DNA of 43,821 nt from Candidatus Bathyarchaeota archaeon (GTDB lineage Archaea; Thermoproteota; Bathyarchaeia; TCS64): the NCBI GenBank assembly GCA_030739585.1, contig JASLYX010000003.1, positions 103,812 through 147,632 on the forward strand, given 5' to 3'. The position numbers were made by a program, and so were the translations under genes. Of the stretch, positions 1,442 to 40,701 are shown in pieces. The notes under the pieces were generated by a model, which searched no databases, was not told the origin of the DNA, and worked only from the letters and a program-made list of their open reading frames with translations. Numbering within the stretch: the first letter of the stretch is position 1; the number at the start of each line of letters is the position of its first letter.

Positions 1442-2581
1442 TCAGTTATCTCTCACATTTTCTAATATCTCAGGCAGATCGTTCACCGACAGGGCAACGA
1501 TGTCAGAACCGCATGACATGAAGTCGTCTCTTGCCTCCTCAGAACCGTGCACGTTCCCGTGAACCCCAGCGAATAGGAAAGGGGGTTCCCCCGCATTCCT
1601 AACCATAAGCCTATCGGCCATGGTGTCCCCCACATATAAGACCCGATCGTAGGGTTTGAAGGGCTTTGAGGCTTTAAGCAGTGAAAAGGGATGAGGCTTG
1701 TGGAGGCCCACCATGCCCTTTATCGCCTGGGCCTCGTCGACGGCCTCATACCAGATCCGGGCATCCTCTTTGATCTCATTGATGGATTCCCCGAGGACGT
1801 GCATTGCAGTCGCGGCAAGGCTGCCGGATGAGATGCCCATCCTCGCCCCACCCAGAATCTCCGTGAGCCTCCTAAGGGTTTCATCATTGATTATCACACC
1901 TTCATTCTCGATAAAGCCGGAACCTTCAGCCCCATATATCCCCTCTATCCCAAAGCTCCGCTCAAATAGCTCTGCCCCAGAGAATATCTCCTCAAAGACT
2001 GTGGCTACGAGTCCCTCACCCACGCCACCCGGATATCCGAGGGTATCCCTGATCTCAGGGTAAACTTGGTTACAAAGCAACCTGTCGACAGCCTCCCAGC
2101 CCGTGGAGTCCAGCTCCTCGGCAAAGATGGTAAGACCCCTGTACAACGTCTTCACCGGAATTTCGGATGCTATTGGGTTTTCCCTAAGATGTTTGAACAT
2201 CCCAAAAAGGGTCCCAGATTTTAGTGCCTCTACAGCGACCCTCCTTAGCCTCTTCAGAGAACCCTCCGGGAGCTCAGCCAAGGTCCTTATTATGAATGCA
2301 TAGGTAAGAGCCCAATCGTTGTTGAATCCCCCTGTGCGCTTGTAGACACGGTTGAGCCGTGAATCGTAAAGTTCCTCGGGAACAGCGTAACCAGTCATAG
2401 TCTCAACTAGGGCACTCGTGGTCCTGGCGACGGCCCTGCTGTAGGACTCCCTGACATCAAGGAGGACGCCATCACAGTCGAATACCACCACATCAACCTT
2501 TGTCAAGTCCCTCAGACGATCCTGCCTGATGTAATAGGTCTCCCCTGTGGTGGTTTGAGATTCTACGTATCTAGGTTTCAC
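1442..2581 (-). CDS. HAD-superfamily phosphatase in the his operon, probable histidinol-phosphate phosphatase
   Basis: This 379-aa protein belongs to the HAD superfamily, resembling the subfamily IA group (TIGR01548-like) often found near histidine genes in archaea. Motif I with the nucleophile Asp is FDCDGVLLDV near residue 35, and motif IV is YVGDTMADRLM near residue 318. The long helical cap between them makes it larger than ordinary IA phosphatases. It overlaps hisC by 4 bases and ends 2 bases before hisB. Catalysis of L-histidinol phosphate to L-histidinol is inferred only from this context: the operon otherwise has all surrounding steps and hisB is monofunctional. Another phosphosubstrate cannot be excluded from sequence. 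Confidence 0.8.
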   Translation of the reverse strand: MKPRYVESQTTTGETYYIRQDRLRDLTKVDVVVFDCDGVLLDVRESYSRAVARTTSALVETMTGYAVPEELYDSRLNRVYKRTGGFNNDWALTYAFIIRTLAELPEGSLKRLRRVAVEALKSGTLFGMFKHLRENPIASEIPVKTLYRGLTIFAEELDSTGWEAVDRLLCNQVYPEIRDTLGYPGGVGEGLVATVFEEIFSGAELFERSFGIEGIYGAEGSGFIENEGVIINDETLRRLTEILGGARMGISSGSLAATAMHVLGESINEIKEDARIWYEAVDEAQAIKGMVGLHKPHPFSLLKASKPFKPYDRVLYVGDTMADRLMVRNAGEPPFLFAGVHGNVHGSEEARDDFMSCGSDIVALSVNDLPEILENVRDN

Positions 2582-39474: not shown

Positions 39475-40701
39475 CTATTCCAGCTTCTCTACGCCGTACT
39501 TGTCGTAGTAGTCCAGCCATAGCTCCCTTATGTCCTTGTCTAGACTGTCCTTGATGAGAGAGTAAATGGTCTTAATGTTCTGGATCGAGAACACATTGAG
39601 GCCCAGCACGTCCTCCAGGTACTGGACTGCACTCAACTCTTCAACGTTCTCGGTGTCCCCCATTCTCTCATGCCGGTCTACCGCGAGGATGATCCCTGCT
39701 ACCTCATGGTCCCCTAGGAGCTTCAGTTTCTCGATACTCTCCACCTTTGTGGTCCCTGTGGTCATAGTGTCGTCCACCACTAGAATGCGTTGCCCCTGTT
39801 GGAAGTAGCTGGCGCCCACAATGACCTTGTCGGCGGAAATGTCCCCGTAGTCCTTCGCCTCTTTCCTGTCGTACATATACCTCTTGTCCATACCATAGAG
39901 CTCGTTCAGTCCCTCGCAGGTAAGGGCGGCAAGGCCGATGCCCTTGTAGCTGGGCCCGAAGACATAGTCGAAGTCTCCGAGTGACCCCTGCTCCATGAGG
40001 AGGACGATGTAGCTTGCGAAGGCCCACTTCACGGCTGCGAGACTCTCGCCGTCTGTGAGGGCCCCCAGGTTCACGAAATAGGGGGAGGGTCGCCCGCTCT
40101 TGAGGATAAAGGGCTCGTCGGGGCTTGGGAGGAGCCTCAAGGCTCCTTTTCTCACAAGGATATCAAGGAAAACCTGCTCAATCCTCTCTTTGGAGACAAG
40201 CCCCCCGCCCTCAAGGATAAAGTCTTGACCCTTGAGGTCCTCGAGGATGGAGCCGTAGTAGAGGATGGATCCACAATAGGAACAGTACAGCTTTATGGAT
40301 TCCACATCACCGTTCCCCTCTACCTTGAACCTGGTGCGGGGTGGGGTGTACTGAGCATTGGTAAGGCATAACGGATTGGGGCACTTGAATATTCCCTCGA
40401 TATGCTCTGGCCGATGGACTCGCCTCTTTTCCTTGACTGTCCAGTCCTCGATGATGTTTATCGACGCTTTGGGAGCAACGAACGCGATGAGATCCACCTC
40501 TCTGGAGGTTAGGTAGGATCCCTCGATCTTGATGAAATCCTTGGTCCCTTGGCTCCGGCTCTCCACGTTTTGTGCGATGAGGGCGCGAACACTCGGATCC
40601 ACCTTGAGCAACTTTAAAACCAGAAAAGCTTTACCAGCTGGAATGTGGTCGATAACGATCCCATTCTCGATCTTGCTTACCAGGAGCTGTCTATCTGACA
40701 C
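39475..40701 (-). CDS. Fusion of aspartate carbamoyltransferase regulatory chain (PyrI) and orotate phosphoribosyltransferase (PyrE)
   Basis: A 408-aa two-domain protein. Residues 1-150 are PyrI: LLVSKIENGIVIDHIPAGKA, GSYLTSREVDLIAFVAP and the structural zinc site Cys107, 112, 140, 143 (FKCPNPLC and YCSYCG). Residues 170-408 are PyrE: FILKSGRPSPYFVNLG, FGPSYKGIGLAA, YDRKEAKDYGD and the PRPP loop VVDDTMTTGTT (308-318). So one chain would regulate ATCase (step 2 of pyrimidine synthesis) and make OMP (step 5). Each domain looks intact. No pyrB is in the window. Start is GTG at 40701. Confidence 0.94.
   Translation of the reverse strand: MSDRQLLVSKIENGIVIDHIPAGKAFLVLKLLKVDPSVRALIAQNVESRSQGTKDFIKIEGSYLTSREVDLIAFVAPKASINIIEDWTVKEKRRVHRPEHIEGIFKCPNPLCLTNAQYTPPRTRFKVEGNGDVESIKLYCSYCGSILYYGSILEDLKGQDFILEGGGLVSKERIEQVFLDILVRKGALRLLPSPDEPFILKSGRPSPYFVNLGALTDGESLAAVKWAFASYIVLLMEQGSLGDFDYVFGPSYKGIGLAALTCEGLNELYGMDKRYMYDRKEAKDYGDISADKVIVGASYFQQGQRILVVDDTMTTGTTKVESIEKLKLLGDHEVAGIILAVDRHERMGDTENVEELSAVQYLEDVLGLNVFSIQNIKTIYSLIKDSLDKDIRELWLDYYDKYGVEKLE

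Follow-up and report, generated by a model that had tools for sequence, protein, structure and literature searches.

Introduction

Does a protein exist that joins the regulatory chain of ATCase (PyrI) to orotate phosphoribosyltransferase (OPRT, PyrE) in one polypeptide, and what would such a protein do? The question is raised by a gene in a stretch of 43,821 nucleotides from a Candidatus Bathyarchaeota archaeon (GenBank assembly GCA_030739585.1, contig JASLYX010000003.1, positions 103,812 to 147,632), hereafter called the window. An earlier note on this DNA had claimed a PyrI-PyrE fusion. To our knowledge PyrI has so far been seen to serve only ATCase, which catalyzes step 2 of UMP synthesis. 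That two archaeal classes keep a PyrI with an intact effector site in one frame with the step 5 enzyme points to feedback control, or to assembly, across non-adjacent steps of the pathway.

Results and Discussion

The gene forms a single open frame without internal stop, and its parts are compiled in Table 1.

Table 1. Features of the fusion gene in the window (aa, residue of the encoded protein).
Feature	Position	Strand	Basis
pyrI-pyrE fusion gene, 408 aa, GTG start	39475..40701	-	open frame, domains, one-frame orthologs
PyrI allosteric (nucleotide-binding) domain, aa 7-96	40414..40683	-	PF01948, E 7e-29; residues
PyrI zinc domain, aa 100-148	40258..40404	-	PF02748, E 7e-10
Zinc-ligand Cys C107, C112, C140, C143 (E. 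coli C109, C114, C138, C141)	40273..40383	-	invariant, 28/28 fusions
Linker, aa 149-168, containing the PyrI C-terminal tail and an EGGGLVS stretch	40198..40257	-	alignment to E. coli PyrI/PyrE ends
PyrE (orotate phosphoribosyltransferase) domain with N-terminal helix, aa 169-408	39478..40197	-	TIGR00336; 3mjd, URA5, Salmonella OPRT
OPRT mobile catalytic loop RKEAKDYG, aa 279-286 (E. coli His105 to Tyr)	39844..39867	-	residue comparison
PRPP-binding motif VVDDTMTTGTT, aa 308-318	39748..39780	-	sequence; D124/D125 equivalents invariant

Both Pfam domains of PyrI scored above cut-off and lie in the expected order. The NCBIfam model TIGR00336 (pyrE) matched aa 196-378 with 110.8 bits against a cut-off of 106.8, while PF00156 (20.7 vs 26.3) and, slightly, TIGR00240 (140.4 vs 148.55) stayed under their curated cut-offs. 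Residues 4-158 align with the PyrI of Sulfolobus and Methanocaldococcus and residues 176-403 with the OPRT of Francisella, yeast and Salmonella, all of solved structure. Since both halves retain their natural ends, they are connected by some 20 residues of linker. The fusion is thus confirmed as a complete PyrI, a linker and a complete PyrE; with one frame, the domain matches and same-frame orthologs the fusion noticed in the earlier note stands, and the four-Cys zinc site and PRPP loop that it had named were both located. An AlphaFold model of the fusion from eight orthologs was unusable (pLDDT 47.8), probably owing to the shallow alignment.

The sampled genomes all belong to the window's phylum, and G000 denotes the genome of the window. 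Of 32 genomes in the window's order (Bathyarchaeia), 22 carry the fusion uninterrupted and in one frame, with orthologs 64-89% identical to the window fusion. Five further genomes carry a cut copy, interrupted by an N gap (G003), by contig ends (G008, G022, G024) or divided between two contigs (G030), and no match was found in four order genomes of 64-85% completeness (G005, G011, G015, G020). Beyond the order, the fusion is found in one frame in G049 of family f10, also Bathyarchaeia, and in a second class, where five genomes have it, four of genus g123 and one of g176.

According to the earlier note, a frameshift or an assembly join at about codons 155-170 would have spoken against the fusion. 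Such a frameshift does occur in one order genome, G010, in which the two halves lie in different frames with the junction at the linker; all other complete copies of the order are single frames. The break in G010 (contig C66, L098) falls within ten consecutive G and is probably a sequencing error, with the slippery run placed exactly at the join. The intact frame, by contrast, is carried by independent genomes that stem from different studies (the named records are all Candidatus Bathyarchaeota), among them the single-contig genomes G006 and G271 (1.7 Mb). Comparison of G000 with two species of the same genus gave a dN/dS of about 0.06 for each half, and judged by these ratios both the PyrI and the PyrE half are under purifying selection. 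The one-frame orthologs rule out an assembly artefact, and the broader notion that the fusion is an assembly join, a frameshift artefact or a pseudogene is hardly credible. As a separate observation, G014 carries, in addition to the full fusion, a second PyrE of the fusion type (G014:C34:2804-3181, L101), which is 5'-truncated, 60% identical to that of the window and remnant-like.

Residues of 28 fusions were compared with PyrI and PyrE of E. coli, the numbering of which is used in the following. Together with the zinc ligands, N111 is invariant in all of them. The residues D19, H20, K56, K60, N84 and K94, which we take to form the nucleotide site of PyrI, correspond to D18, H19, K54, K58, N82 and K92 of the window protein and are intact in 27 of the 28 fusions, G049 being the exception. 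On the PyrE side K26, K73, R99, K100, K103, D124, D125 and R156 are intact throughout, and the exchange of the loop His105 is the sole change among the checked catalytic residues. In most pairs the linker is the part of the fusion with the highest dN. The zinc loop around N111 reaches a conservation of 0.87 in fused PyrIs compared to 0.64 in separate ones.

In G000 one PyrI match and one PyrE match were obtained, and both are the fusion gene. A search for pyrB in the same genome, which the earlier note had proposed as a check, revealed the gene on another contig, distant from the fusion (G000:C6:22624-23514; TIGR00670, 364.8 bits). The encoded PyrB agrees with that of E. coli at 13 of 14 checked catalytic positions, with Y165 replaced by F. 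The genome also encodes PyrD and OMP decarboxylase-family proteins. None of the neighbours of the fusion in the window (a peroxiredoxin, a class I tRNA synthetase and an SPFH protein) is pyrimidine-related. Within the second class, pyrF of G271 overlaps with the fusion. In G406 the fusion is flanked by pyrD on one side and on the other by a pyrF-like gene, which is convergent and overlapping and matched OMP decarboxylase models with scores under the curated cut-offs. This pyrD/pyrF context lends independent support to a role in UMP synthesis. From its residues, purifying selection, its occurrence as sole copy and the gene context in G271 and G406, we infer that the PyrE half would act as an OPRT enzyme.

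Two further arrangements of pyrimidine genes were observed. An arcC-type carbamate kinase gene (TIGR00746 above cut-off) is located about 60 bases upstream of pyrB on the same strand of G000:C6 (L084:5613-7641), which hints at this kinase as a possible source or consumer of the carbamoyl phosphate of ATCase. In family f35 (L176, L177), of the same class as G271, a compact run pyrE-pyrB-pyrI-pyrK-pyrC consists of separate genes with an archaeal-type PyrE; pyrK and pyrC were named by eye from the translations.

Origin and Fate of the Fusion

In the PyrI tree the fused PyrIs form one clade with moderate support (SH-aLRT 91-93), apart from the native PyrIs of Bathyarchaeia. An independent fusion of native Bathyarchaeia PyrI was rejected, as the AU test excludes a clade of fused and native sequences (p 0.0013). 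The fused PyrEs likewise form one clade (99), to which the standalone PyrE of G083 and the stripped gene of G252 also belong. The PyrB of the order falls inside native Bathyarchaeia PyrB; this placement does not support a joint transfer of PyrB with the fusion, while the AU test is compatible with a joint clade (p 0.26). The simplest reading of these trees would be a single fusion event followed by lateral movement between archaeal lineages. In the window's order the fusion most likely replaced the native PyrI and mostly also the native PyrE. The standalone PyrE of G083 (G083:C10, L100 / L081) is of the fusion type, 58% identical and without attached PyrI, and lies in two frames in the assembly; a separate PyrI adjoins pyrB on another contig of this genome.

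The recipient genomes differ in what became of the native genes. A native PyrI was not found in families f1 and f3, among which G029 alone keeps a separate native-type PyrE beside the fusion. G027, which the PyrB tree places as sister to the remaining order genomes sampled, possesses an intact fusion, a separate native-type PyrI and a native-type PyrE, and its PyrB surface is unaltered. Contamination as the source of the separate genes in G027 is unsupported: in GC content (0.586-0.589) and tetranucleotide composition they agree with the contig of the fusion. Because of the separate genes in G027 and G029, replacement is not universal and the pattern of decay has one exception. In family f10 (G049, G252) a native PyrI is retained next to pyrB. 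Of the fused copies in this family, that of G049 no longer has K60, N84, Y89 and K94; that of its congener G252 lacks the PyrI interior and shows a CTAGCTAG-like junction, which itself could be an assembly feature. Where a second PyrI is present in the genome, the fused PyrI has therefore decayed in two of three cases (G049 and G252, not G027); where the fusion is the sole PyrI, nucleotide and zinc sites are intact. The pattern points to retention of the PyrI half for the job of a PyrI. Nature provides its own experiment: native-type PyrI, native-type PyrE and fusion coexist in G027, families f1 and f3 seem to have lost the native PyrI and altered the PyrB face, and in f10 the native PyrI is kept and the fused one decayed.

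The PyrB Face and the Role of the Fusion

Conservation along PyrB was compared between ten sequences from families f1 and f3 of the order (among them G005, which yielded no fusion) and thirteen from Bathyarchaeia that have a separate PyrI. Out of 299 windows along the protein, loss of conservation was greatest in those starting at E. coli residues 100-110, and further losing windows start at residues 222-232. Both stretches presumably include the faces by which E. coli ATCase contacts the regulatory chain, where we assume E109 of PyrB to pair with N111 of PyrI and D236 with K143. Within the fusion-carrying order the changed surface is conserved to 0.54, compared to 0.70 for the remaining protein. 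Position 109 is E or D throughout the order and Val in g123/g176.

We regard it as reasonably probable that the protein is a bifunctional ATCase regulatory chain and OPRT, which probably places OPRT on the ATCase holoenzyme. The PyrI half would serve as the ATCase regulatory chain of the cell, dimerizing and binding effectors of the CTP/ATP type in its allosteric domain, and its zinc domain would dock on the PyrB encoded elsewhere in the genome. The PyrE half would be the only orotate phosphoribosyltransferase of the cell, responsible for step 5. E. coli-type ATCase consists of two PyrB trimers and three PyrI dimers; with one OPRT on each regulatory chain, such an enzyme would carry up to six OPRT domains. 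Steps 2 and 5 would thereby be held in a single particle at a fixed ratio and under one nucleotide sensor. The sequences directly demonstrate the single-frame fusion with two complete halves, conserved sites and purifying selection, as well as the lone PyrI and PyrE matches and the PyrB of G000; docking on PyrB, the stoichiometry of the holoenzyme, nucleotide binding and any coupling of OPRT to ATCase are what we infer from them. The full picture, an ATCase-OPRT particle of PyrB trimers and PyrI-PyrE dimers, encoded by a laterally spread gene and with the face of the native PyrB refitted to the foreign chain, is offered tentatively and may well prove wrong in part. If true, the first committed step of UMP synthesis and the one that consumes PRPP would share one nucleotide-sensing complex.

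The low conservation of the changed PyrB face within the order is also expected from relaxed or lost docking, and together with Val at position 109 in g123/g176 it counts against a regulatory chain bound to PyrB, as do the incomplete replacement in G027 and G029 and the exception to the decay pattern. The PyrI half might no longer bind PyrB, but form a nucleotide-sensing dimer that controls OPRT, so that feedback has moved to step 5 and PyrB remains as a lone trimer. We hold this to be unlikely, even though PyrB of the carriers diverges most in the presumed contact stretches and is less conserved there than in its other parts, the nucleotide site is retained in the fusions and pyrB lies apart from the fusion in G000. 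The known job of the PyrI zinc domain is the contact with PyrB, and in the fusions this domain retains all four Cys and an unusually conserved loop; residue 109 of PyrB stays acidic throughout the order. Moreover, the decay of the fused PyrI in two of the three genomes with a second PyrI is expected if its job is to serve PyrB. A PyrB refitted to a foreign regulatory chain accounts for the altered face as well as for the conserved zinc loop, lost docking only for the former. As possible roles of the fusion the earlier note had put forward a scaffold or nucleotide control of OPRT. With intact sites as sole PyrI, decay beside a second PyrI and an altered PyrB face, the indirect evidence fits an ATCase regulatory chain better than a sensor for OPRT only.

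The two halves could also be independent of each other, the fusion fixing co-expression or stoichiometry or being neutral, and having spread as two pathway genes in one piece. Native-like ends and a short, variable linker agree with this, and pyrI is found near pyrE in related archaeal pyr operons such as the run of family f35, which would make a fusion within an operon easy. On the other hand, the one-frame architecture persists across two classes, and apart from the homopolymer case of G010 no re-split is seen in the order. The standalone copy in G083 and the stripped one in G252 demonstrate that separation is possible, yet it was not fixed where PyrI is needed. Independent halves are accordingly rather improbable in our view, and we prefer a regulatory chain that carries OPRT.

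Relation to Known Proteins

In comparison to standard PyrI (PF01948 and PF02748; Sulfolobus 1pg5, Methanocaldococcus 2yww), the fusion has the same two domains, the four-Cys zinc site, the nucleotide residues and a PyrB in the genome, but differs by a C-terminal OPRT and by a gene located apart from pyrB. Its PyrI is of different descent from the PyrI native to Bathyarchaeia. The PyrE half shares catalytic and PRPP residues, the N-terminal helix and length with gamma-proteobacterial and fungal OPRT (E. coli PyrE, yeast URA5, TIGR00336), from which it is distinguished by the N-terminal PyrI and by Tyr in place of the loop His105; it also differs from the archaeal-type PyrE native to other Bathyarchaeia.

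Two kinds of related fusions are known. In the PyrB-PyrI fusion (NF009916/PRK13376) PyrI is likewise joined to a pyrimidine enzyme, but the partner is ATCase of step 2 and not the enzyme of step 5; the match of PRK13376 to the window protein is limited to the PyrI part, and an ATCase catalytic domain is absent. UMP synthase and PyrF-PyrE (NF004034/PRK05500; eukaryotic UMPS) also contain a PyrE fused within the pathway, with PyrF, the enzyme that follows, as partner instead of the regulatory chain of step 2 found here, and no match to PF00215 for an OMP decarboxylase domain was obtained in the window protein. The earlier note had doubted that PyrI-PyrE is a common fusion, and rightly so: no description was found in the open-access literature searched, though an earlier listing elsewhere is possible, and in the NCBIfam search of the window protein, where models for PyrB-PyrI and PyrF-PyrE exist, none appeared for PyrI-PyrE.

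At the other end of the window, a HAD-family hydrolase gene (1442-2581, minus strand) was found within a histidine run of hisH, hisB, the hydrolase gene, hisC, hisD and hisG, names that were assigned by eye. The hydrolase is a candidate histidinol-phosphatase.
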